A stretch of DNA of 64,000 bases from Sphingorhabdus sp. EL138 (lineage in GTDB: Bacteria; Pseudomonadota; Alphaproteobacteria; Sphingomonadales; Sphingomonadaceae). Both the position numbers and the translations under genes were made by a program. The notes beneath the pieces are model-generated. The model was not told the origin of the DNA and did not search any database. It worked only from the letters and a program-made list of their open reading frames with translations. Below are positions 4,972 through 50,895 of the stretch, in pieces. Positions within the stretch are counted from its first letter, which is position 1; every line of letters begins with the position of its first letter. The DNA lies in NCBI RefSeq assembly GCF_900258045.1, contig NZ_OGVD01000004.1:248001-312000 (forward strand), read 5' to 3'.

Positions 4972-5952
4972 TTAGATTTCAAAGTTAACCATTTTGGCCA
5001 TGATGAACACACCGATGCTCATCCAGGTCAGCCCGCCGAGGCCAGCGATGATCAAGCGTTCTTCGTAAAAGAATCCAGCGAGATAAGTCGGGTTAACCGA
5101 CCATACCAAGGCGAAAACGATGAATGGCAATGAACCAACAATGTAGGCGGATGCCTTTGATTCCGACGACATGGCTTTGATTTTCAGTTTCATCTGGCCA
5201 CGTTTACGCAGCACATCTGCCAGGTTGGCCAGCGTTTCGGCCAGGTTACCACCTGTCTCACGTTGAATGGCGAGCGTGATGCAGAAAAATTTGAATTCTG
5301 GTGTATCGAGCCGTTTGGCGCTTTCCTGCAAAGCATCTTCCATTGTCCGGCCAATTTTGATCCGGTCAACAACCTTGGCAAATTCTTCGCCTACAGGTCC
5401 GTCAATTTCCTTTGCAACCACACCGATGGTTTCCGTTACCGGTAGACCCGAACGCAGACCACGAACCAAAAGTTCGATCGCATCAGGGAATGAAGCGGTA
5501 AACTTGCTGACTCTCATGCTGATCAGGATGCCGACAATCATATGCGGTAGGCCAAATCCAACCGCCAGTCCCCCAAATATGCAAAGGAGCAAGGGCGCTC
5601 CCTGAAAGATCAGGCCGGCACAGACGAGAACAGCGATTCCGAGGCAAACCGAAAAAAACTGCTTGATGGTCCATTCGCGCCCGGTTCGGTCGAGCCGGAT
5701 GGCGAGCATATCCATTCTCGACAGCGTTTCGCCAGTGGGCCGATGGTTTTTCCGGCGGGCACTGACCGCCTTTTTCATCTGTTCTTCCATTTTGGCATTG
5801 GTGCTTTCCGAATGACGGAAGCGCACTTTGTCCAGACGCTTTGCCTTTGCCGTAGCCTCTGAAGGGCCGGCAAAAGCAAACACGATGAGCATAAGGACTA
5901 GCAATATTCCTCCACCCAGAATGGCTGTCTGCATCATATCCATTACGTGCAT
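4972..5952 (-). CDS. tadB: Tad pilus inner-membrane platform protein TadB
   Basis: A 326-residue T2SSF-domain protein with an N-terminal membrane segment (residues 10-30), a paired segment near 100-140 and a C-terminal pair. FPDAIELLVRGLRSGLPVTETIGVVAKE and the later IQRETGGNLAETLANLADVLR are typical of TadB. An ATG three codons in (5943) is an alternative start. In most Tad loci the ATPase gene cpaF/tadA sits between cpaE and tadB. Here only 31 bases separate tadB from cpaE, so cpaF is absent from its usual place. Confidence 0.9.
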   Translation of the reverse strand: MHVMDMMQTAILGGGILLVLMLIVFAFAGPSEATAKAKRLDKVRFRHSESTNAKMEEQMKKAVSARRKNHRPTGETLSRMDMLAIRLDRTGREWTIKQFFSVCLGIAVLVCAGLIFQGAPLLLCIFGGLAVGFGLPHMIVGILISMRVSKFTASFPDAIELLVRGLRSGLPVTETIGVVAKEIDGPVGEEFAKVVDRIKIGRTMEDALQESAKRLDTPEFKFFCITLAIQRETGGNLAETLANLADVLRKRGQMKLKIKAMSSESKASAYIVGSLPFIVFALVWSVNPTYLAGFFYEERLIIAGLGGLTWMSIGVFIMAKMVNFEI

Positions 5953-5983
5953 CCTTGCATGTTAGAAAGAAACGGGTTGGGCA

Positions 5984-7273
5984 TCACGATTCGGATGTCT
6001 CGCCTTCTTTCTTCTTCTTTGATGGCAGGAGTGATTTCATCCCTCCAAATTTGTCCATCAGCGATGTTTTTGCTTTGCCTTCGCCTTCTTCACCTTCGTC
6101 TTCGACGGTGCCAAGAATATGTTCGGACAGCGCAATAATCTTGCCGGTCGCCTTGCTTGATTTACCAGCTTCTACAAAGGCTTGCCCCAATTTCGCTGCA
6201 TGCGCGGCTGCTTTGGGGTCGGCCGGGATCATGATATCGATTTTGCGTTCGATCGAATTCTCAAAATCCTGTCTGGAGATTTCCAGACCACCGGATTGCA
6301 CTTTGTTGGCAACAACAATCACTTTGCTCTGCGCTGCATGCGATTTCAGCCATGACAGCAATCGAATAGCATCGCGGGCAGAAGCCAATGTCAGTTCCGT
6401 GACAATGACGGTCGCGTTCACATCGCCCAGGAGATGCGGATAGTTGATCAGCATGTCGCGTGGCAGGTCGATAACCGTGCATTCGAAGGCGGCACGAAAT
6501 TCTTCCTGCAATTGGAAAAAGGCTGTTCCGTCTGTCATCATCGGCGAGTTGATCGGTGCCTCAGCCGACAGCAGAGACAGCTTCTCGTTCGCCTTGATCA
6601 TCGCCCGTTCAATGAACAGACCGTCGATCCGGCTGGGATTATCGATGGCATCGGTAAGTCCGCGGCCTGGCTCAAGGTCCAACGCCAGAGCGCCAGTACC
6701 GAAATGAACATCAAGATCGAGAAGCGCGGTCAAACGCTCTTTCTCGTTGCTGAGTAACCATGCAAGCGATGTTGCAATCGTCGATGCGCCGACGCCTCCA
6801 CGGGTCCCGATGACTGCCGTGGAAACATGTGGCTTCTCACTAGCTTGTTCATCGGTTTTCGGTGCGTTGAGCACGGCTTGTGCCTGACTCAGTACATCGC
6901 GCAATTGTTCGGGGCTGAACGGTTTCAGGAGATAGTCCTGCAGACCGCTAACGATCAGGTCGCGGTAAAGACGGACGTCGTTTACCTGACCCATGGCAAT
7001 AACCACAGTTCCAGGTTCGCAGACTTCAGCCAAAGAATTGATGTCGGCCAATGGATCGCCAGATTCGGACAGATCAACCATCAGAATATTTGGGCTCGCC
7101 GCAACAGAAAGCGACTGCACCGCGTTGCGAAGTCCACCTTTGTGGCACTTGTCTACCGGCCAGCCCATCTCTTCTACGACAGGACGCAGCAGGTCCAGCG
7201 TATCTTCATCACATACGAAAGCGGAGAACGGATCACGTCCGTTTACGGCACCGGGTTTCCAGGGAGCGTTCAT
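5984..7273 (-). CDS. cpaE: Tad pilus localisation ATPase-like protein CpaE/TadZ
   Basis: A 429-residue protein with an N-terminal atypical receiver-like domain (residues ~18-130) and a MinD/ParA-like domain starting at VIGTRGGVGASTIATSLAW. CpaE/TadZ proteins mark the polar site of Tad pilus assembly. The deviant Walker A loop has Arg and Ala where MinD-type ATPases carry Lys residues (TRGGVGAST), so ATP turnover may be weak. The C-terminus is highly charged and Glu/Lys-rich. Its start codon overlaps the cpaD stop region by one base, so the genes are coupled. Confidence 0.88.
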   Translation of the reverse strand: MNAPWKPGAVNGRDPFSAFVCDEDTLDLLRPVVEEMGWPVDKCHKGGLRNAVQSLSVAASPNILMVDLSESGDPLADINSLAEVCEPGTVVIAMGQVNDVRLYRDLIVSGLQDYLLKPFSPEQLRDVLSQAQAVLNAPKTDEQASEKPHVSTAVIGTRGGVGASTIATSLAWLLSNEKERLTALLDLDVHFGTGALALDLEPGRGLTDAIDNPSRIDGLFIERAMIKANEKLSLLSAEAPINSPMMTDGTAFFQLQEEFRAAFECTVIDLPRDMLINYPHLLGDVNATVIVTELTLASARDAIRLLSWLKSHAAQSKVIVVANKVQSGGLEISRQDFENSIERKIDIMIPADPKAAAHAAKLGQAFVEAGKSSKATGKIIALSEHILGTVEDEGEEGEGKAKTSLMDKFGGMKSLLPSKKKKEGETSES

Positions 7274-7881
7274 TATAGGCCTCCAGCTTGTTTGGCTTTG
7301 TCACGATAGGCACGAATGGCTTTTGATGCTTCCGACTGATCTTCGCCATCGCGGGCCTGGCCGCGCACGAGATCTTCAGGATCGGCAATCATTGCCGCCA
7401 TTGTGCTGTTAACTCCGCATCCATAATTTTCGCTCGTACGAGCCTGAAAATCGGTATGGCTGCGGTTGCTCCAATCCGGGCAACCAGGAACGGTTGCGGT
7501 TGAGCGTGAAACAACAACGCGCATTGCGCCGCTTGGAACATTGCCTTCGGTTACCGGGGCAATGTCGCTGATCAATAATCCTTTTTGAGCGGCCAGGGCT
7601 TCAACTGCACCGCGAGCCGAGGCTCCGGCGTTGTAACCCGGGTCGTCAATGGCAACGCGATCTCCATATCCCAGATCCAAGGCATCAAACCAGCCCGCAA
7701 GGCGGCGAAACTCGGCATCGGGGAGTGATCCCGATCCTGCCGTGTTGACGTCCAGCACGAAGTGGGACCGGGTAACAACCGGTTGCCGTTCGCTGTACAC
7801 GGTACGGTTGGCTGTCGTGCTACCGCATGCTGCGACAGATAGTCCGAGAGCGGTTACAAGTGCTATAGAAACAAAACGCAT
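7273..7881 (-). CDS. cpaD: Tad pilus lipoprotein CpaD
   Basis: A 202-residue lipoprotein with signal peptide and lipobox (SVAAC, Cys19), followed by the CpaD domain. The late segment VPGCPDWSNRSHTDFQARTSENYGCGVNSTMAAMIADPEDLVRGQ is the diagnostic family signature with its cysteine pair. CpaD proteins are outer-membrane partners of the Tad secretin. It sits between cpaC and cpaE in canonical order. Confidence 0.9.
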   Translation of the reverse strand: MRFVSIALVTALGLSVAACGSTTANRTVYSERQPVVTRSHFVLDVNTAGSGSLPDAEFRRLAGWFDALDLGYGDRVAIDDPGYNAGASARGAVEALAAQKGLLISDIAPVTEGNVPSGAMRVVVSRSTATVPGCPDWSNRSHTDFQARTSENYGCGVNSTMAAMIADPEDLVRGQARDGEDQSEASKAIRAYRDKAKQAGGL

Positions 7882-7902
7882 GATGTCTTCTCCTGAAACG
7901 GA

Positions 7903-9543
7903 CTATTTATCGAAGCTGAAACCGGGGGCAGCGCCACCAGATTTCTTCGGCTTTTTGGCGGTTTTACTGCTGCCTGGTGCGGACATGCTGCTGAGTGCAG
8001 GGCCCGATGCGACCGGTGGAGCAACCTTTGGTTTTGGGCGATCACCGGTACCGGTTGAACTGTGCCGGTTCATAATCAGCCGTTCAAAATCATTGGCTTG
8101 CTTGAAGCCATCGGTGGGCAGGACGATATCGCTGTCGCTGACCGGTTTGACGAGATATGGTGTCACAACGATCATCAACTCGGTTTCGTTCTTTCGATAT
8201 CCGTCCGATTTGAAGAGGTTACCAAGCACTGGTATATCGGCCAATCCCGGTGTTTTATCAATGGATGAGCTGTAGCTATTCTGCATCAACCCAGCAATCA
8301 TGAAGCTTTCGCCGGAACCCAGTTCAATTGTGGTTTCCGCCTCTCTTGTAGAGATAGCCGGAATCTCAAATCCGTTGAGACGAACGGCCCCTTGTGAGGA
8401 TATTTCCGATACGCTTGGTTTTACGCGAATCGAGATACGCCCGTTTGAAAGAACGGTCGGTGTGTAAGAAAGGCTAACACCAAAATTCTGGTAGGTAACA
8501 CTAACTTCACCAAAGCCCGAGGATTGCGGTATCGGGAATCGGCCACCCGCGAGGAAGGTTGCGGTTTCACCTGAAATGGTGGTTAAATTGGGCGATGCCA
8601 ATGTTGTCGATAGACCAATCCGTTCAGATACATCGAGAGCCGTCGCAATATCCAATCCAAACAGACGCCCTGCCGCAGTGACGGCATCCAATCCACTTGC
8701 TTGATTGAAGTTAAATGCCGTACCGCCTTGCGTAACAAATTGACCGGTGGCCGTGTTAAATGGCAGGGAAATTGATCCTGCCGGTAATCCGAACAAGCTG
8801 GAAGCATCCAGCGTGGGGAATCCACTTGTATCGAAATCAGTAATCGCCCCGAAGTTACGACCCCTGTTAACTCCAAATTGAAAACCATTGGTAGTATCGC
8901 GTGTCGTCACGTTGCCATTGATATTCTTGGCAAGCGAGCGAGCTACTTCTGCAAAACGGACCCGTAAATTGACCTGCAAAGGGGTCGCTGTTTTTAGTCT
9001 GCTAACAACACGCGTGTCATCGCCAACATAGGCCTGAACCAGATTTTCTGCTTCTTCAGCATCATCCGGATTAGCGATTGTTCCTGTTAAAAGCACAAAG
9101 TTGTTTGTTGTGCTCACCGAAATTTTTGCGTCTGGCATGGCTAAGCCCAGCATCTGGTCAATCGATGAAATCTCAGCACCAACAGAAACTTCCGCAGAAT
9201 ATACGACCTTGCCTGAACGGCTAGTTGCATAGAAGCTGGTTTGTCCGCCTGACTTCCCAAAGATGTATAGCTGGCGTTGGGAGCGAACCTGCACGTCGGC
9301 AATATCATCTTCAGCAATGAAAACGTCTTGGATCGGCGCCGGCAGTGTAATCAGCTTGCCACGACCAACAGCAACCGAAACACGGGATTGTGGTGCGGTA
9401 ATCTTGACCGATTGAGCGTTAAGTGGTGTCGCGCTGTTGACGGACACGGTTAGAGCCAGGACGGAAGTAACAGCCGCGCCCATCACCTTTTTTGCTGATA
9501 TTTTGTTTGTTTGGCGGTTATGCTTTGCATATTGAATGGCCAT
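7903..9543 (-). CDS. cpaC: Tad pilus outer-membrane secretin CpaC/RcpA
   Basis: A 546-residue secretin. It has an N-terminal signal-like hydrophobic segment (~20-43), a pilus-assembly N-domain (VGRGKLITLPAPIQDVFIA), a BON-like domain with NFVLLTGTIANPDDAEEAE, and the C-terminal secretin domain with the ETATFLAGGRFPIP and ELGSGESFMIAGL segments. It forms the outer-membrane pore for the Flp pilus. The tail after residue ~490 is basic and Pro/Ser-rich (PKPKVAPPVASGP), perhaps a periplasmic extension. It directly abuts cpaB. Confidence 0.92.
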   Translation of the reverse strand: MAIQYAKHNRQTNKISAKKVMGAAVTSVLALTVSVNSATPLNAQSVKITAPQSRVSVAVGRGKLITLPAPIQDVFIAEDDIADVQVRSQRQLYIFGKSGGQTSFYATSRSGKVVYSAEVSVGAEISSIDQMLGLAMPDAKISVSTTNNFVLLTGTIANPDDAEEAENLVQAYVGDDTRVVSRLKTATPLQVNLRVRFAEVARSLAKNINGNVTTRDTTNGFQFGVNRGRNFGAITDFDTSGFPTLDASSLFGLPAGSISLPFNTATGQFVTQGGTAFNFNQASGLDAVTAAGRLFGLDIATALDVSERIGLSTTLASPNLTTISGETATFLAGGRFPIPQSSGFGEVSVTYQNFGVSLSYTPTVLSNGRISIRVKPSVSEISSQGAVRLNGFEIPAISTREAETTIELGSGESFMIAGLMQNSYSSSIDKTPGLADIPVLGNLFKSDGYRKNETELMIVVTPYLVKPVSDSDIVLPTDGFKQANDFERLIMNRHSSTGTGDRPKPKVAPPVASGPALSSMSAPGSSKTAKKPKKSGGAAPGFSFDK

Positions 9544-10502
9544 TATTTGTCTCCAAACTTAACTTCATTGACGGCATTACCGCGTGCTATCCGGACTTTT
9601 GGTCCTTCTGGCTTTTGTTCTTTGGTCAACTGCGGTGGGGTGCGTGCTTCAAAGCGTGACACTTCACCGCCGGTTGAGAAGGTTGATTTCTTGGAATCCG
9701 GCCGTGTTGCGAGAGACTTGATCATAGCCGCTTCCTGGGCTGGATCATCGGTTTTAGGCAGTTTGATCTCACCAGAGGCAATCGCTTCTTCAAGCTCTGC
9801 GGTGCTATCAGCCAGCGAACGAAGGGACAGGCTCAGCGTACCCAAAGTTTGGGCAACAGCTACTTTTTCAGCAATTTTCGGCGTGGCTTCAAGCGTAACC
9901 AACTTGGTTTTGACCGGTACGGCCTGACCTGCCTCATTTGTTGTTTGGGTAACGCGGTTATCGGTAGCGAGAACCCGAATATTACGGATAACCGTTTCCG
10001 ATACTTTGAATTCCGGTCCTTGACCTTTAATTGTCTGTGTTAGCACCAGGTCAACTCGGTCTCCCGGGAACACGAAACCGGCAACACCGGTCAAGCCAGA
10101 AACAGGAATAGTAACGGCACGCATGCCGGGGCCGAGTGCTGCTGCCAGGAAGCCGCGGTCACCCGGGCTAACAATAGCGCCTTTGGTGAGTGGCTGTCCG
10201 GCAGTAATAGCGTTACGAACGACTGTACCGTTCAGAGATTCAATACTCGTACCTTCTTTTTGGAAATAAGCTTCCTCAACAAGGTCTTCCGGCCAAGGCT
10301 GGAAGCTGAAGGCATCAGGCGTAATGATAGTGCCAACGGGCAAGGCGCGCGAAGCGACGAGAACTTCGTCCCCCAGTACTTCGACCTTTTTCGCTTCCAC
10401 TTGTGGTGCAGCAGCACCCGCGAACATACTTCTGGCGAGCAATGCTGTGACCGCAGCCACTACCAATGCGCCGATAAGCAAAATTAGTTTCTTCTTGTCC
10501 AT
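9543..10502 (-). CDS. cpaB: Tad pilus assembly protein CpaB/RcpC
   Basis: A 319-residue protein with one N-terminal membrane anchor (residues 5-26) and a SAF domain (VLVASRALPVGTIITPDAF), followed by the RcpC/CpaB domain (GMRAVTIPVSGLTGVAGFVFPGDRVDLVLT). Family members are periplasmic proteins that work with the secretin and may bind peptidoglycan. The C-terminal ~60 residues are charged and look disordered. It overlaps cpaC by one base. Confidence 0.92.
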   Translation of the reverse strand: MDKKKLILLIGALVVAAVTALLARSMFAGAAAPQVEAKKVEVLGDEVLVASRALPVGTIITPDAFSFQPWPEDLVEEAYFQKEGTSIESLNGTVVRNAITAGQPLTKGAIVSPGDRGFLAAALGPGMRAVTIPVSGLTGVAGFVFPGDRVDLVLTQTIKGQGPEFKVSETVIRNIRVLATDNRVTQTTNEAGQAVPVKTKLVTLEATPKIAEKVAVAQTLGTLSLSLRSLADSTAELEEAIASGEIKLPKTDDPAQEAAMIKSLATRPDSKKSTFSTGGEVSRFEARTPPQLTKEQKPEGPKVRIARGNAVNEVKFGDK

Positions 10503-43683: not shown

Positions 43684-44847
43684 TTAATTAGGACTTCGTT
43701 CGACAGGGCGCGCTATATTTTCCTCGAAAGCGCGCTCACCATCATCGTTGAAAGCATCGCTAAACTGGCTTCTGAATTCCGGTCTGGGTGGGTCCCGGGG
43801 TACGTCCAGATTACCAGCAGCAATGGCTCGCAAAATTGCGATCCGTTCCCGAACAATCGTGGCAACACAAGCGGTGTCAGGACAGGTGTCTCGTGTTTCG
43901 GTGCGCCATGCGCGTTGTTGTCGCTGAAGCCTGGGAGCATTTGGGCCGGCAGCGGACATTGCGTTCTTGTAAACGGACGACAAGGTCCGGTCGAGCTTGG
44001 CAAGTTCCGGGGTGTTGCAGATTAGAAATTCAATCCGCTGCGACGCTTTGGCACAATCAAAACTCGGCCCGTCGGGCGGCAGCGGTTTTGGAGCGACCGG
44101 TTTTGCTACTGGTTCAGGGTCCGGTTCTTCGGCCATATCGTCGTCCACCGGTTCGGCGGGATTTTCGACAGGATCAACCGGTGGCAAAGGCTCGTCCGCA
44201 CTCATGGTGGTCCAGATCAGGAAGCCAGCGACTACAGCCACGAAAAGCCCGGCGATACCGACAATCGGCAGCCAATTGGTTTGTGACTTTTCAGGTTCCC
44301 AATCATCATAGTCTTCATAAACCGGCTCAGGCTCGGGTTCGGGCTCCGGATCCGGTTCCGGCTCTGGAGCTTCGGCTGCGCTCGCCTCGTCATTGCCGCT
44401 ATGTTCGATCAGATCATCGACGGTCATGGTTTTCTGGACCGTGCCAGCAAGTTGATGCGCCTTGGCAGCAACCCGTTCAATTGTGCTCTCGCGCTGTTCG
44501 AGCCAGTCGATCCACTGCGAACTGGCAAGATGATAAGCCAGTTCATCCGGGGCAAGTTCTTCGAGCCGTACGGGAATAATGGCCTTTCGTGACGAATCTG
44601 CCAGGATCAGCTCGCGCTTCACATGGGGACTTTTGTCTGACTTGCTGCAGAAGAGAAGCAGCGTTGCACAGCTTTGATCAATGGCGCGTTTTATCGCCAT
44701 ATCGAATGCCTCGCCGGGTTCAACATCGCGGGGGGCCAGCCAACAGGTCACGCCATATTTGGCCAGAGATTTTTCGAGTTCCAGCGCGACAGGCAATTTA
44801 CTGGAATGATGGCTGATAAACAGCTGAGTCGCTGGTTCTTGCCCCAT
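43684..44847 (-). CDS. TIR-domain membrane protein with periplasmic LprI-like domain
   Basis: A 387-residue three-part protein. Residues 6-118 form a TIR domain (QLFISHHSSKLPVALELEKSL, CWLAPRDVEPGEAFDMAI, KSPHVKRELILA), with Glu79 the candidate NAD-cleavage residue. An acidic Pro/Glu linker (157-190) leads to one membrane helix (193-213). After it, a Pro-rich linker ends in a DUF1311/LprI-like domain (263-342) with the Cys pattern FDC...LIC...TC...TAC. The TIR part should be cytoplasmic and the LprI-like part periplasmic, a layout I do not recall as described. ATG 44847 was chosen over an upstream TTG. It is divergent from the cyclase gene at 44971. Confidence 0.78.
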   Translation of the reverse strand: MGQEPATQLFISHHSSKLPVALELEKSLAKYGVTCWLAPRDVEPGEAFDMAIKRAIDQSCATLLLFCSKSDKSPHVKRELILADSSRKAIIPVRLEELAPDELAYHLASSQWIDWLEQRESTIERVAAKAHQLAGTVQKTMTVDDLIEHSGNDEASAAEAPEPEPDPEPEPEPEPVYEDYDDWEPEKSQTNWLPIVGIAGLFVAVVAGFLIWTTMSADEPLPPVDPVENPAEPVDDDMAEEPDPEPVAKPVAPKPLPPDGPSFDCAKASQRIEFLICNTPELAKLDRTLSSVYKNAMSAAGPNAPRLQRQQRAWRTETRDTCPDTACVATIVRERIAILRAIAAGNLDVPRDPPRPEFRSQFSDAFNDDGERAFEENIARPVERSPN

Positions 44848-44889
44848 ATTTCCCCGTTCCCCTCCGGCGTAGCCGTCATGCGTTCCCAA

Positions 44890-44970
44890 TCACATAGCGG
44901 AGCTTATACCCAAGATAGTGACTAAAGCCATAATTTGCGGCATTTGCAAAACTTAACTAGGAGGGATTGC
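44890..44970. promoter_or_regulatory. Divergent promoter region of TIR/LprI and cyclase genes
   Basis: About 80-120 bases separate the two start codons, so both genes are likely controlled from here. A clear AGGAGGG ribosome site precedes the cyclase ATG. I see no distinct palindromic operator. Confidence 0.5.
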
Positions 44971-46722
44971 ATGGGGGCAAGCTTAACTGAAACCAAAAAA
45001 GCCATCGACAAAGGAAATTTGTTGCTGGCCTACGATCTTGCCCGCGTGGCGATCGATAAGGGTGATACATCGGCAGAATTGCGACACTTGCTGGTGCTGA
45101 CGCTCGCTCGTATGGGCGATGGGCCGCAGGCGATGGAACTATATGAAGAATATGGTCTGCACAGTTCGGCCAATGCGCATCATCGTTCAATTGCTGCGCG
45201 AATATTGAAAGATGCGGCGCTGGCGATGCCGGATGGTGATGATCGTGATGAAGCGCTGTTGTCCGCCTACCGGGCTTATACCAAGATTTATGAGGATAGT
45301 GGTGACGCTTATCCAGGCATCAATGCTGCCAGTCTTGCCCTGATAAGCGGGCGCAAGAAACAGGCACAGGCGCTGGCTTCTTCAATCATTGCACTCAAGG
45401 AAATATCGAACCCGAAAGACTATTATGATGCGGCGACACTGGCCGAAGCCCTGTTGATCAACGAGCGGGTCGATGAGGCTGCCGCTGCACTATACATGGC
45501 GAGCCAGTTGCCCGATGCCAATAGCGGTGCAAAGTCGAGCACCAATCGCCAACTTGCATTGCTGGCCCGAACATTGGGGCTGGATGCTGATCGGGAAAAT
45601 GCTGTGCTCGCCCCGATATCGCCGCCCACCGTCGTTCATTATTGCGGTCATATGTTTCTTGAAGATGCGGCAACCGAGGCGGCTTTGCGGAACCGGATTG
45701 ACGAATTTCTGAACAAGCAGAATGGCGATTTTGCTTACGGCTCCTTGGCGGCCGGTGCTGACATATTGGCGGCGGAAGCGATGTTGGCACGCGGTGGGGA
45801 ACTGCATCTGACGCTGCCATTTCTAAAGGAAGATTTTATCGAGCAGTCTGTCATACCTGCTGGTGAGGGATGGCTTGGGCGGTTCGAACATTGTCTGGAA
45901 TCGGCTACCAGCGTGCATTTCGCGACGGAAATGAACTATGTCGGTGATCCGGCACAATTTGGTTATGCCAGCAAAGTCGCCATGGGCATGGCGAAATTGC
46001 GGGCGGATTATCTCGGTACATCTCCGCAGCAATTGGCTTTGTGGGATGGGGTGGCGGTTGACGGACCCGCCGGAACCGGTGCCGATGTCAAGGCTTGGAG
46101 TGACTATGGCGGCGTCACTACAGTTATCGCACCGGACGCAATTGATCGCAATCTGAGCTGGCCCGAACAACCTGATACAGATGACCTGGGCCGCGGTCTG
46201 GCGGCGTTTTTGTTCACCGACTTTCCGGGTTTCTCGAAACTTGCGGAAGCGGCACTGCCGGCCTTCTGGCAAGGTGTAATGGGACGGATGGGAGCAGTGC
46301 TGGACAATTATCCGGACCAGGTTCTGGCGAAGAACAGCTGGGGAGATGCGGTGTTGGCAATCACCCCGGATGCGCCGGTTGCTGCCGAGATTGCGCTGGC
46401 CCTGCAAGAAACTTTGCAGGATTTTGACTATGGCCTGCTGGGGCTTTCCGAAAGCAGCGGCATGAGGATCGGCGTCCATTATGGACCCGCCTATCAGACT
46501 AAGGATCTGATCACTGGTAAAACGACCTTTTATGGTACTGAAGTCTCACGCGCCGCGCGGATTGAACCGGTTACTCCGCCTGGCGCGGTGTTTGTGACGG
46601 AACCTTTCGCCGCGATCCTGATTCTGGAGGCGTCTGACCGGTTCAAATGCCGCTATGTCGGGAATGTCGAGTTTGCCAAAGGCTATGGGACATATCCGAT
46701 CTATCGCCTGATGCCAGTCTAG
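44971..46722 (+). CDS. TPR / SLOG-like / class III nucleotide cyclase protein
   Basis: A 583-residue protein with three parts. Residues 1-205 are alpha-helical repeats (TPR-like, LAYDLARVAIDKGD, LLTLAR-type heptads). Residues 220-390 (VHYCGHMFLEDA, GSLAAGADILAAEAMLARGGELHLTLPF) resemble a SLOG-type nucleotide-binding Rossmann fold. Residues 408-583 are a class III adenylate/guanylate cyclase domain with metal Asp417 (FTDFPGFS) and Asp459 (SWGDAVLA) and Arg530 in EVSRAARIEP; the usual Asn four residues before the Arg is Ser. It may sense a ligand through SLOG and make a cyclic nucleotide. ATG 44971 has AGGAGGG upstream. Divergent from the TIR/LprI gene. Confidence 0.75.
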   Translation: MGASLTETKKAIDKGNLLLAYDLARVAIDKGDTSAELRHLLVLTLARMGDGPQAMELYEEYGLHSSANAHHRSIAARILKDAALAMPDGDDRDEALLSAYRAYTKIYEDSGDAYPGINAASLALISGRKKQAQALASSIIALKEISNPKDYYDAATLAEALLINERVDEAAAALYMASQLPDANSGAKSSTNRQLALLARTLGLDADRENAVLAPISPPTVVHYCGHMFLEDAATEAALRNRIDEFLNKQNGDFAYGSLAAGADILAAEAMLARGGELHLTLPFLKEDFIEQSVIPAGEGWLGRFEHCLESATSVHFATEMNYVGDPAQFGYASKVAMGMAKLRADYLGTSPQQLALWDGVAVDGPAGTGADVKAWSDYGGVTTVIAPDAIDRNLSWPEQPDTDDLGRGLAAFLFTDFPGFSKLAEAALPAFWQGVMGRMGAVLDNYPDQVLAKNSWGDAVLAITPDAPVAAEIALALQETLQDFDYGLLGLSESSGMRIGVHYGPAYQTKDLITGKTTFYGTEVSRAARIEPVTPPGAVFVTEPFAAILILEASDRFKCRYVGNVEFAKGYGTYPIYRLMPV

Positions 46723-46732
46723 TACTTGTTGC

Positions 46733-48004
46733 TTAGAGATAGTCTTTCAGCAACGGGCCGACATCGACTTTTGCTTTCAGACGGTTGGCCAGCATGTAGA
46801 CACCGCCAAATTTGCGGTGAATGAAAACCGTATCAACCGGCGGGACATGCCAGAAATCGCGGGCCGCCGCAAAACGCATCCCTTCGTCGCGCAGATCCTG
46901 CGCGATTGCATTGTCGGAAAAGTCTATTGGACCTTTTTTACGCAACGGCGCCATGGCCATCTCGAACATGTCCATGATGGCCTCCTGATGATGGTCCGCT
47001 GCGCTGTCATCGAACAAGCCGATTTTGATCGCTGCTTTCTGGGCTGCCTCGCGATCGCCGGCCATTCCGGCGATCACCAGCTTGCGATATTGATTGGCGA
47101 CACGTTTCGGCACGGCACGGGTCGCACCAAAGTCTAGCAGCACGAGTTGCCGCGTTTCGTGATTATAGCGATAGTTGGCAAAATTAGGATCAGTTTGCAT
47201 CAACCGAAATTCAAACAGTTCGCGGAGCATCAGGCTGAATAGCAGTTTGATGATGCGGTTGCGTTCCCTTTGGGATGCAGACGCCATGGACTCGATAGGC
47301 GCGCTATCAATGTAGGACATGGCGAGGACATGACCGGTCGTGAGATCTTTGTGCAATGCCGGTACCTGAAAGTCCGGTGCATCTTTCAGCAACTTGCCAA
47401 AGCGTTTGAGATAGGCCGCTTCCTGCTCATAATCCGCTTCCTGATGCAGCTGCAGCTTGGCTTTCGAGAGCATCGGGGCGATGTCGAGTGATTTGGGCAC
47501 GACACCGGACAGGTTGATAAGCGATGCGACATTATCGACGTCGCTATCAATGCTTTCCCGTACGCCGGGATATTGGACCTTGATAGCAAGATCGCGGCCA
47601 TCAGCCGTGGTGGCGCGATGGACCTGACCGATGGAAGCGGCGGCAACAGGCCTCATCTGGAAATCTTCAAACCGGTCTTGCCAATCTGACCCATATTGAG
47701 AGGATATCACTTTAAGCAACTGCTTTTGAGGCATATATTGCGCATCGGCGCGCAGTCGGGCAAGAATTTCGGACAGTTCTGGCGGAAGGAAATCGCTGGC
47801 ATCCATCGACAGCATCTGCCCCAGTTTCATCGCCGCACCGCGCAGATTGGCTAGCTGGTTGGTCAGTTTAATCGCGTTGCCAGGCGTAAGCAGCATGTCG
47901 CTGATCTTCGGACGTTCGCCTTCGGCCAGACGTTTTGCTCCCTCCAGCAACATGCCTCCGCCAATTGCCGTTGCCATGGTCCCGAAGCGGGCAAAGCGCG
48001 ACAA
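46733..48004 (-). CDS. ABC1 kinase family protein (UbiB/AarF-like), 5' end disturbed
   Basis: A 423-residue atypical kinase with the ABC1 signature: AAMKLGQMLSMD (KxGQ), AAASIGQVHRATTADGRDLAIKVQYPG (ADCK nucleotide loop) and LVLLDFGATRAVPK (DFG). Homologues act in ubiquinone synthesis or lipid homeostasis. The first available start is a TTG at 48004. However, the frame stays open upstream, encoding a KGLAVPSGRLSRFARFG stretch that I recall as conserved in relatives, until a stop just beside an ATG at 48072-48074. Losing one A of the run at 48068-48071 would join that ATG to the frame, so an N-terminal frameshift or sequencing error is likely. Confidence 0.85.
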   Translation of the reverse strand: MSRFARFGTMATAIGGGMLLEGAKRLAEGERPKISDMLLTPGNAIKLTNQLANLRGAAMKLGQMLSMDASDFLPPELSEILARLRADAQYMPQKQLLKVISSQYGSDWQDRFEDFQMRPVAAASIGQVHRATTADGRDLAIKVQYPGVRESIDSDVDNVASLINLSGVVPKSLDIAPMLSKAKLQLHQEADYEQEAAYLKRFGKLLKDAPDFQVPALHKDLTTGHVLAMSYIDSAPIESMASASQRERNRIIKLLFSLMLRELFEFRLMQTDPNFANYRYNHETRQLVLLDFGATRAVPKRVANQYRKLVIAGMAGDREAAQKAAIKIGLFDDSAADHHQEAIMDMFEMAMAPLRKKGPIDFSDNAIAQDLRDEGMRFAAARDFWHVPPVDTVFIHRKFGGVYMLANRLKAKVDVGPLLKDYL

Positions 48005-49103: not shown

Positions 49104-49808
49104 TCAGGTTCGACGAAGTGGAAGGCGGATGACGCCAAAGGACAAGGCCTGACACAGGCCAAGGATCGCCAGAACCAACAGGCCGAGACCCGCCCGCCCG
49201 CCGAGCAGCGTTTCCAGCGATTGTCCGCCGCTCAACGAAAAGCTGATGAGGCCGATGATGAGCAAAAGGATGACTGCCATTGCCAATCCACCCAGCAGGC
49301 GCAGGCCGATATTAGCAACCGTCCATTGCTTTCGTTTCCCAAGCCGCGGGGCCGTTTGACTATGGAAGATCGCATCGTTCAAGATCTCGACGTCCTGGCT
49401 AAAGGAAATATGCCGCACGAACAGCGCGTTGCGATCCAGTAACGGGTGAAGCTCCTCAGGCAACTGATCCCGCGTCGGCATATCGGCCTCGTTGAGCAGA
49501 ACGGGGATCACCCGTTTGCCGAGGCGCAGCGCCTCTGCCACTTCCATGCGCACAAAATCATTCTCGTTGGATATGCGCGGTCGTGCGCCTTTTATCGTCT
49601 GCCCCAGCCATTTGTCACCGATGAGGACGAGGCAGATATCGGCCTCGGCCATTGCACTGCGCAAACGGTCTGGAAAAGCCTCGCCAGCCGCAATCGATTC
49701 CACGTCTAGAAACACCGACTTAACGCCCGGCAGGTCGGCTAGCCGGTCCGCCAGTCGCGCTGTGGCATCCCGGCTGTCATCGCGGCGGTAACTGAGGAAT
49801 ATGCGCAT
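49104..49808 (-). CDS. TIR-domain protein with two C-terminal membrane helices
   Basis: A 234-residue protein with a TIR domain in residues 1-145: MRIFLSYRRDDSRDATARLADRL, VFLDVESIAAGEAFPDRLRSAM, ADICLVLIGDKWL, then NDFVRMEVAEALRLGKRVIPVLL with candidate catalytic Glu89. Two hydrophobic segments follow (167-192 and 205-228), which anchor it in the inner membrane. TIR domains cut NAD or mediate assembly. Start: ATG 49808; a TTG at 49817 overlaps the stop of the upstream gene by three bases. It is downstream of the lipoprotein gene in one operon. Confidence 0.82.
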   Translation of the reverse strand: MRIFLSYRRDDSRDATARLADRLADLPGVKSVFLDVESIAAGEAFPDRLRSAMAEADICLVLIGDKWLGQTIKGARPRISNENDFVRMEVAEALRLGKRVIPVLLNEADMPTRDQLPEELHPLLDRNALFVRHISFSQDVEILNDAIFHSQTAPRLGKRKQWTVANIGLRLLGGLAMAVILLLIIGLISFSLSGGQSLETLLGGRAGLGLLVLAILGLCQALSFGVIRLPLRRT

Positions 49809-49813
49809 GGTCT

Positions 49814-50731
49814 TCAACGCTTGAAATTGGCCGCGATGGTCATGTTGAGCTTCGTCTTCGCCAAGTGGATGCGCGGAGTTAAACGGCCGGGTGCGATCAT
49901 CCGTACCTTGCCGGTGCGGGAGTTTTTAGTGAACTCATAAATCAACGCCTCAACATTGTGATCGCCCGTGAAAGCGATTTTTTTATAGGCGGTCGAAAGA
50001 TTATTGCTGCCAGCGCTGAGCCTTCTCTGTGCTTCGGTGCTGGACAGTGACCGGCGGCTGGTTTGATAGGGAGTGTCGCTGACGACCACGGCAATATAGC
50101 GATAGAATCCCGGAGGCGCGTCAAGGAACAGGCCTCTGACGAAACTTGTCAGGGAATCGGAATTGCGCTGACTGGGCAAGGTATAGCGTTCCGTACCAGG
50201 CAGCGGATCGCCCTTGGCGCTAATTTTTTCAATACGGGTGACCAGAACAAAGCCGCCCGGCGCAGAAAAATAACTATATTCAAGATAGCCTGCATCCTCG
50301 AAAGCCGCCTTAAGCTTCTGACCGGCATCGTGAAGTGACAAATTTGCCCGACCCTTGATGAAGCGGTCAAGGCTGACGCGCGAGGACGGCGTTTCAGGGG
50401 GCCAGACGGGATATCTGGGGATTTTGGGACCTCCCTTAAACAGCCCTGATAATGATCCGGTCCTGATGGAGCGTTTGACTGTCTTCCCGGCTTTCGATCC
50501 GACCTTGTCAACTATTCTCTTCTGCGCGGGACGCGGGCGTGGTTTGGCCACCGCTACGGGAGGCGGCGGCGGAGGGGGAGGAGGAAGGGCAGCGGGCTTC
50601 GGCTCGGCCATGGGGGAGGCGACTTGCTGTGATTGGCCGGTTAAAGGCTTGCTCGCGCAGCCCGACATCAGCAGCATCGTCACACTCGCCGCTGCGGCGA
50701 CATATCGATAGTGCTGGCTGGCCCCCGTCAT
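49814..50731 (-). CDS. Proline-rich outer-membrane lipoprotein, unknown function
   Basis: A 305-residue lipoprotein (signal peptide, lipobox LLMSGC, Cys25). A Pro-rich linker (~46-70, run of nine prolines then KPRPRPAQK) may span the periplasm. The C-terminal ~200 residues are compact and start with VSLDRFIKGRANLSLHDAGQKLKAAFEDAGYLEYSYF; I do not recognise the family. It is the first gene of a two-gene operon with the TIR protein (5-base gap). It could be the outer-membrane partner or sensor of the TIR protein. The frame reaches 50794 but ATG 50731 gives the lipoprotein signal. Confidence 0.7.
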   Translation of the reverse strand: MTGASQHYRYVAAAASVTMLLMSGCASKPLTGQSQQVASPMAEPKPAALPPPPPPPPPVAVAKPRPRPAQKRIVDKVGSKAGKTVKRSIRTGSLSGLFKGGPKIPRYPVWPPETPSSRVSLDRFIKGRANLSLHDAGQKLKAAFEDAGYLEYSYFSAPGGFVLVTRIEKISAKGDPLPGTERYTLPSQRNSDSLTSFVRGLFLDAPPGFYRYIAVVVSDTPYQTSRRSLSSTEAQRRLSAGSNNLSTAYKKIAFTGDHNVEALIYEFTKNSRTGKVRMIAPGRLTPRIHLAKTKLNMTIAANFKR

Positions 50732-50895
50732 GTTCCCCACCTGAATAGCCCCATGTAAAGCCTTGTAATCCAATAAAGCTGTGAGGTCCATCATCGAAAC
50801 CAGCGGGTGGTTTTGTCGAGTATGAAGTTTCTCTGTTCATCCGGCTAATTTTGTTGTTAACCTACGACATAAAATAAAGCCTAAGGGAGTCCTCC

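Follow-up and report, generated by a model that had tools for sequence, protein, structure and literature searches.

A TIR–LprI membrane protein and a TPR-S/SLOG-like nucleotide cyclase encoded divergently in Sphingorhabdus: a possible case of modular receptor-plus-hub signaling

We analyzed two divergently oriented genes in a 64,000-nucleotide stretch of the Sphingorhabdus sp. EL138 genome (contig NZ_OGVD01000004.1, positions 248,001 to 312,000; the whole stretch is hereafter called the window). One gene encodes P1, a receptor-like protein with a TIR domain, a membrane helix and an LprI domain, and the other encodes P2, in which a TPR-S domain and a SLOG-like region are joined to a class III nucleotide cyclase domain (Table 1). 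An initial annotation, made from the letters of the window, had regarded the pair as a candidate signaling or immune module. TIR genes were found near P2 homologues far more often than expected, co-occurred with them in the same genomes without being adjacent, and encoded proteins with varied C-terminal parts. We see an even chance that P1 and P2 are one exemplar of modular receptor-plus-hub signaling, in which a TIR-made signal would be read by the TPR-S/SLOG-like part of P2 and would control its cyclase.

Table 1. Coordinates of P1, P2 and associated features in the window.
Feature	Position	Strand	Evidence
P1, TIR – transmembrane helix – LprI receptor-like protein, 387 amino acids (aa)	43684..44847	-	open reading frame, Pfam, orthologues
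TIR_2 domain of P1, residues 10-123	44479..44820	-	Pfam E 1.4e-18
Glu79 of P1, at the TIR catalytic Glu position	44611..44613	-	alignment of TIR domains
Membrane helix of P1, about residues 191-212 (approximate)	44212..44277	-	orthologue hydropathy scan
LprI domain of P1, residues 265-322, predicted periplasmic (membrane side inferred)	43882..44055	-	Pfam E 2.1e-7
Gap between the P1 and P2 start codons, 123 bp	44848..44970	.	block 44905-44960 also upstream of P1 in genome G401
P2, TPR-S – SLOG-like – class III nucleotide cyclase, 583 aa	44971..46722	+	open reading frame, Pfam, profile comparisons
TPR-S domain of P2, residues 22-122	45034..45336	+	Pfam E 1.1e-9
SLOG-like region of P2, residues 213-405 (LOG-aligned part 45616-45837)	45607..46185	+	profile comparisons
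Class III cyclase domain of P2, about residues 408-579	46192..46707	+	Pfam, PDB profile search
Asp417 of P2, putative first metal ligand	46219..46221	+	Asp in 58/58 relatives
Asp459 of P2, putative second metal ligand	46345..46347	+	Asp in 58/58 relatives
ABC1-family gene next to P2	46733..48004	-	Pfam, locus comparison

The likely start codon of P1 is the ATG at 44847, giving 387 aa; an alternative TTG start would lengthen the protein by 14 residues, which the open frames of L091 and L092, two of the five orthologues, do not contain. The architecture given in the initial annotation, namely a TIR domain, one membrane helix and an LprI domain, was borne out, since Pfam TIR_2 scored 68 bits against a cut-off of 28, Pfam LprI (PF07007) scored 31.7 bits against 22, and a hydropathy scan placed a single membrane helix near residues 192–209 in each of the five named orthologues. 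The residue that had been assigned to the TIR Glu position, E79, was Glu in each of the 116 TIR domains from the loci retrieved (near-copies counted), and we take this column to be that of the TIR catalytic Glu. The TIR part also matched the PADLOC models SAVED_TIR (E 4e-10) and Aga TIR (E 4e-6), and NCBIfam models matched P1 only below cut-off. As far as sequence goes, the LprI family name would carry no information on lysozyme inhibition by P1.

The P2 reading frame starts at the ATG at 44971, and its predicted helical repeats and class III cyclase were both recovered above Pfam cut-offs. TPR-S (PF20308) scored 39.2 bits against a cut-off of 27.6, and Guanylate_cyc (PF00211) matched residues 467-578 (E 1.3e-6). 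MAP3K_TRAF_bd also matched above cut-off, at residues 34-180 (E 4.3e-6). Pfam predicted no membrane part in P2, and its scan found neither a Sir2 nor a Macro domain there. At E<=1, TPR-S was matched in all 58 aligned P2 relatives and Guanylate_cyc in 56 of them. Both metal aspartates named in the initial annotation, D417 and D459, were invariant in the 58 relatives, as was R530, which is presumably the transition-state Arg of class III cyclases. Note that 57 of the 58 had been retrieved with cyclase patterns that include the second Asp. A profile of the whole of P2 had 28 PDB matches at E<=0.001, all with their best stretch in the cyclase part, and no molecule named PycC was among them. P2 gave no PADLOC or NCBIfam match at E<=1, a result on which the unchecked presence of PycC models in the PADLOC library bears, and none of the 58 relatives had an NCBIfam match at E<=0.001.

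The SLOG-like character of the middle region of P2, set beforehand as one of two refuting tests of the initial annotation, was upheld by profile comparison. No Pfam family matched residues 213-405, where many residues invariant among the 58 sequences lie (G226, G257, G262, E269, P283, G298, W301, R304 and G339). A profile of this region, built from 34 sequences, matched the LOG family (cytokinin riboside 5'-monophosphate phosphoribohydrolase) at 76% in hhalign (E 2.3e-5, for a single comparison) over 73 columns that include the Gly-rich loop, versus 1.6% for the best of 56 control gene-family profiles. DprA (0.5%), YAcAr (0.2%) and TIR profiles failed to match it in hhalign. When the same profile was searched against 177,635 distinct PDB sequences, three were returned at E<=10: a TATA-binding protein (E 0.66) and two LOG enzymes (E 1.6), which were aligned over the Gly-rich loop. 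The second half of the region, however, does not align with LOG. The LOG catalytic motif is PGGxGTxxE, which is not recognizable with confidence in P2. We take residues 213-405 to be a probable SLOG-like region whose first half appears most similar to LOG.

Linkage between TIR genes and P2 was examined in a family sample of 199 genomes, 51 of which carried P2 homologues, at 52 places. A TIR_2 gene lay within 5 kb at 42 of the 52 places, as compared with about 0.43 expected from the TIR counts of those genomes when 3.3 Mb was taken per genome; among P2 homologues with an intact cyclase, the count was 14 of 22. At the 80 named loci, a TIR open frame was present within 5 kb in 57. The link between a TIR gene and the cyclase protein was thus stronger than the initial annotation could have known, whereas conservation of the divergent P1/P2 pair itself across Sphingomonadales, which that annotation had proposed as a check, was not seen: the exact pair was found only in the window's genus g1 (G000, G153, G291 and G440) and close named kin (L090-L093 and L142), and elsewhere P2 had another TIR gene or none. 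The placement of the TIR partner varied between divergent, same-strand upstream, same-strand downstream and convergent.

The TIR partners that were scanned with Pfam end in LprI, SH3, FHA, TPR or WD40, and a further type, here called two-TM, has two C-terminal hydrophobic (transmembrane, TM) helices and no further Pfam domain. In a quick tree of P2, the kind of partner changed five times among TIR-bearing loci, which is the minimum for six kinds. The six LprI loci formed one clade (SH-aLRT 100), which grouped with four loci having an upstream two-TM TIR gene (99). Note that the quick method carries a long-branch warning (L164, L166, L160, L158 and others), that L137, whose gene is cut by a contig end, was excluded from the tree and seven contig-edge loci from the label-change counts, and that partner labels were assigned by length, position and manually compiled lists; the Pfam scan behind the SH3 label covered L074 (genome G180) rather than the 15 loci that carry it. 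Other genes also adjoined P2 homologues. A gene for a 2084-aa RTX-repeat protein (L138:1720-7974) ends just before one of them, and a gene for a 530-aa multi-helix membrane protein (L101:4048-5640, on the same contig as L055) overlaps the start of another. The latter product had no Pfam domain above cut-off, and its end is TIR-like by eye only; its genome, G018 (85% complete), gave no TIR_2 match.

Co-occurrence irrespective of position was then scored in 397 genomes of one family, with the P1 TIR domain (E<=1e-15) and the SLOG-cyclase part of P2 (E<=1e-40) as queries. P1-like TIR genes, 45 in all, were found in 24 genomes and the P2 part in 47, and 22 of the 24 also carried P2 (Fisher p 5e-21, kinship ignored). 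When counted by genus, all eight genera with P1-like TIR fell among the 20 of 96 with P2 (p 1e-6). Only four of the 45 P1-like TIR genes adjoined P2. The two-TM TIR query matched in nine genomes, near full length in eight and over residues 1-192 only in G074; all nine carried P2, which was adjacent in G401, G355 and G300. TIR_2 proteins of any kind were present in 48 of the 51 genomes with any P2 homologue. As a separate observation, G077, a family-sample genome outside the 51 with P2 homologues, had 14 TIR_2 matches.

Several receptor-like genes may accompany one P2. The nine genomes of genus g75 with P1-like TIR have two to six such genes each, and eight of the nine have P2, which in G074, G142 and G195 follows secA (by eye) with no TIR gene within 5 kb. 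The g75 proteins that were read consist of a TIR domain, mostly one membrane helix, and then LprI, DUF3617, TonB_C or an unrecognized part. An LprI end was found in L254 and, just under the Pfam cut-off, in L235; no membrane helix was called in L237:473-1543. P1-like TIR proteins with DUF3617 or TonB_C ends, some encoded in tandem, occur in one genus (L242, L239, L237, L250, L240 and L244). The SPOR-like ends of L244 and L237:1548-2564 were seen by eye only, and Pfam gave none in L244 at E<=0.01. The SLOG-cyclase part of P2 was matched once in each of 46 of the 47 genomes that have it; in the remaining one, G376, it appeared as two complementary pieces on two contigs.

The surroundings of far and short P2 homologues bear on the possible output. 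Of the twelve TPR-S and SLOG-like positions checked, all are conserved in nine of ten far homologues and two are changed in L083; nine of the ten, all but L032, have a TIR gene within 5 kb. A Crp-type gene was found in the fetched stretches of eight of the ten far loci and in L072, whose cyclase keeps both Asp residues. Note that eight of the genes found in this way had gone into building the Crp profile, so that only the other matches are new. The Crp-type gene of L084 was confirmed by Pfam (cNMP_binding and HTH_Crp_2). Among the 80 named loci, the profile found L150, where the gene is directly upstream of P2 and was confirmed by Pfam, and L164, with more distant matches in L141, L152 and L163. 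The L084 set (5183-9596) comprises a TIR-TM-TPR protein, a small unknown protein, a TPR-S-SLOG protein whose cyclase is mostly decayed and, on the opposite strand, a Crp-type regulator; similar sets occur in L080, L082 and L083. TPR-S is missing from four short homologues, which retain the SLOG-like part and the cyclase and have a TIR gene no more than 1 kb away. In L164, from an Actinomycetota metagenome-assembled genome (MAG), a gene for a cyclic-nucleotide-binding (CNB) – NTE P-loop – patatin protein (6091-7992) ends just before the P2 match, and a divergent TIR-WD40 gene is also present; the CNB-patatin protein is a possible effector of the cyclic nucleotide.

Within the window's genus, the neighborhood of the pair is largely kept. 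P2 lies between P1 and the ABC1 gene in the window, G153, G291 and G440. The next gene after ABC1 is histone-deacetylase-like in the window and G440, and the gene caller called no such gene at that place in G153 and G291. In G401, the histone-deacetylase-like gene is the next one beyond the start of P1, and both the ABC1 gene and P2 are absent there. The ABC1 gene at 46733-48004, missing from that locus together with P2, may travel with it. The remaining window neighbors include an MFS transporter gene and a RecQ-like gene (by eye), and the neighborhood does not look like a defense island. A 56-bp block upstream of P1 (44905-44960) has a counterpart of 89% identity in G401, where P2 does not adjoin, indicating that the block belongs at least to the P1 upstream region. 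The region between the start codons is indeed short, at 123 bp, and the promoter that had been assigned to both genes is at most a candidate for sharing.

P2 of G401 lies elsewhere, directly after a two-TM TIR gene, and the same order is found in G355. A two-TM TIR gene that shares 78-79% identity with the G401 gene is also present, at a distance from P2, in the window genome, G153, G291 and G440. Support for a move of P2 from a two-TM TIR operon to P1 comes from loci beyond the genus that have such a gene upstream of P2. A simple move of this kind is unproven, because the G401 flanking genes are closer to those of the P2-bearing G440 (MFS 96%, RecQ 96%) than to those of the window (89%, 94%), so that the data agree equally well with a loss of P2 from G401 or with an old second copy. 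Furthermore, P2 of G401 is only 67% identical to that of the window, making transfer also possible. The genus offers a natural experiment, in which P2 adjoins one or another TIR gene and the non-adjacent one has often been retained.

The window holds a second TIR gene at 49104-49817 (-), 2.4 kb from the pair, which partially matches Thoeris-type models and overlaps a gene at 49814-50794 (-), whose 326-aa product belongs to no known Pfam family. Both of these overlapping genes have relatives in G291, G440 and G401, and the G401 orthologue of the TIR protein has C-terminal hydrophobic helices.

On the receptor-plus-hub reading, the stimulus, order of events, signal molecules, cyclic-nucleotide base and purpose of which we infer, the receptors would be proteins with a cytoplasmic N-terminal TIR domain, in most cases a single membrane helix, and a C-terminal part that is exchangeable, being the predicted periplasmic LprI domain in the case of P1. 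The hub would be P2, with its TPR-S and SLOG-like domains joined to the class III cyclase. The ectodomain would sense an envelope event, upon which the TIR domains would cluster and convert NAD+ to an ADP-ribose-type signal; this signal would be bound by the TPR-S/SLOG-like part of P2, the cyclase would be switched, and its cyclic nucleotide would act on CNB proteins such as Crp-type regulators or, in one Actinomycetota MAG, the CNB-patatin protein. We place TIR at the input and the cyclase at the output because the TIR side is multiple, membrane-bound and outwardly variable, while P2 is mostly single. Recognition of TIR-made cyclic ADP-ribose (cADPR) variants by a SLOG domain is described for ThsA of Thoeris (PMC9503650). 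A more tentative, and on balance doubtful, extension is that the arrangement is a bacterial counterpart of Toll-like receptor modularity, in which membrane receptors with catalytic TIR domains inside and exchangeable envelope-facing ends (LprI, DUF3617, TonB_C, SH3 and others) would converge on one TPR-S/SLOG-gated cyclase and an NAD-derived signal would be relayed to a cyclic nucleotide.

Several observations weigh against the receptor-plus-hub reading. No TIR gene was found within 5 kb at eight of the 22 intact-cyclase loci of the genome sample, nor at 15 of the 80 named loci, each with at least 3.5 kb on either side (the remaining eight of the 80 being short or cut). G276 (a 36% identity match) and G417 (87% complete, in 500 contigs) have P1-like TIR and no P2 match, and TIR_2 proteins occur in 59 of the 147 genomes without P2, so that TIR genes as such are independent of it. 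Two P2 loci are present in each of three Phenylobacterium MAGs (L105/L126, L114/L121 and L120/L134), and one hub per genome is therefore not universal. As for the cyclase, position 455 of P2 is N in 57 and S in one of the 58 relatives rather than Lys, and position 526 is S in 34, T in 22 and A in two rather than Asn. We assume these to be the sites of the canonical adenine-specifying Lys and transition-state Asn, respectively; with non-canonical residues at both, activity of the P2 cyclase is not assured. Eight of the ten far homologues lack both metal Asp residues and L026 lacks one, and although L084 has Asp in both columns, these are within a poorly matching stretch. Since TIR and Crp neighbors are kept beside such decayed cyclases, cyclase activity cannot be the sole output. 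Moreover, none of the 12 cNMP_binding matches of the window genome is near P2.

Other explanations deal differently with the same data. If the order were reversed as in Pycsar, the cyclase would sense and its cyclic nucleotide would activate TIR as a toxic NADase effector; Pycsar systems whose effector is PycTIR are likewise made up of a cyclase and a TIR protein (PMC11224242), and both enzyme sites are kept here. The same paper, however, gives PycTIR a CNB domain, and this effector feature was found by Pfam neither in P1 nor in the other scanned TIR partners. In addition, P2 lacks a PADLOC match at E<=1, and several envelope-ended TIR genes per P2 resemble inputs more than outputs, so we consider this order quite improbable. 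A relay by protein contact, in which TIR and TPR-S would bind each other without an NAD-derived messenger, much as in animal Toll-like receptor/MyD88 and ASK assemblies, would accommodate the TPR-S and MAP3K_TRAF_bd similarity of P2 as well as the TPR, WD40 or FHA domains, usually contact-making, of several TIR partners. It is nonetheless unlikely, given the retention of the catalytic Glu in all 116 TIR domains and the four short homologues that lost TPR-S and retain the SLOG-like part.

An anti-phage abortive-infection system related to Thoeris would share the repertoire of TIR plus a SLOG-like domain, and the SAVED_TIR and Aga TIR matches of P1, the CNB-patatin gene beside P2 in L164, and the second TIR gene at 49104-49817 could be cited in its favor. 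The last matches ThsB models (E 4e-8) and, below cut-off, ThcB4 of Thoeris type III, each over about 60 residues. P2 has no Sir2, Macro or PADLOC match, though; the non-TIR window neighbors scanned with Pfam do not belong to known defense families (the PADLOC scan covering four proteins only), and the neighborhood is largely kept within the genus, all of which makes an anti-phage role improbable. That P1 and P2 are chance neighbors sharing an intergenic gap and no joint function would agree with the restriction of the divergent layout to one genus and close kin and with P1 of G401, which stands without an adjoining P2. This we regard as very unlikely, because linkage and co-occurrence are far above expectation and G401 keeps P2 elsewhere.

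If the receptor-plus-hub reading is true, TIR enzymes would act as transmembrane receptors with exchangeable outer domains, NAD-derived and cyclic-mononucleotide signaling would run in series in one bacterial pathway, and TPR-S, which resembles part of the animal ASK protein, would gain a testable ligand.

Among known systems, Thoeris resembles the present pair in having a TIR protein and a second protein with a SLOG-like domain; its ThsB TIR makes a cADPR variant that ThsA SLOG recognizes. By contrast, the predicted output of P2 is a nucleotide cyclase, its SLOG-like region is closest to LOG, and P1 has a membrane helix and an LprI end. With neither a second protein combining Sir2 or Macro with SLOG nor a PADLOC match for P2, the pair does not qualify as Thoeris. 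Pycsar (PycC with PycTIR or PycTM) likewise combines a class III cyclase-type protein with TIR protein partners; its distinguishing points are the CNB domain missing from the TIR proteins scanned here and, on the side of P2, a cyclase joined to TPR-S and SLOG-like parts. Of the three CTP-specificity residues given for EaPycC (PMC11224242), F100 has the same residue in P2 (F415), and the other two differ (N455 and W457 of P2), as placed by offset from the metal Asp only. Cyclic nucleoside monophosphate (cNMP) cyclases, TIR and SLOG domains also occur in other conflict systems, according to PMC7159879, and PMC8195603 cites Burroughs and Aravind 2020, among others, for TIR-made NAD+-derived signals and the bacterial origin of ASK signalosome parts.

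The initial annotation had considered the pairing undescribed. For the combination itself this stood, as no paper on a TIR-LprI or TPR-S-SLOG-cyclase combination was found in the open-licence PubMed Central literature. The underlying idea is older: an abstract by Burroughs and Aravind (J Bacteriol 2020) reportedly introduced the name TPR-S, with the prediction that this domain reads signals derived from NAD+. The TPR-S-centered conflict systems they are said to have predicted share with the present one the TPR-S domain, TIR genes alongside and similarity to the ASK region (MAP3K_TRAF_bd), whereas the envelope-type ectodomains, the partner exchange and the pattern of many receptors to one hub come from the present analysis. 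The P1/P2 system therefore belongs to an already predicted kind, and what is new is the evidence on receptor modularity.

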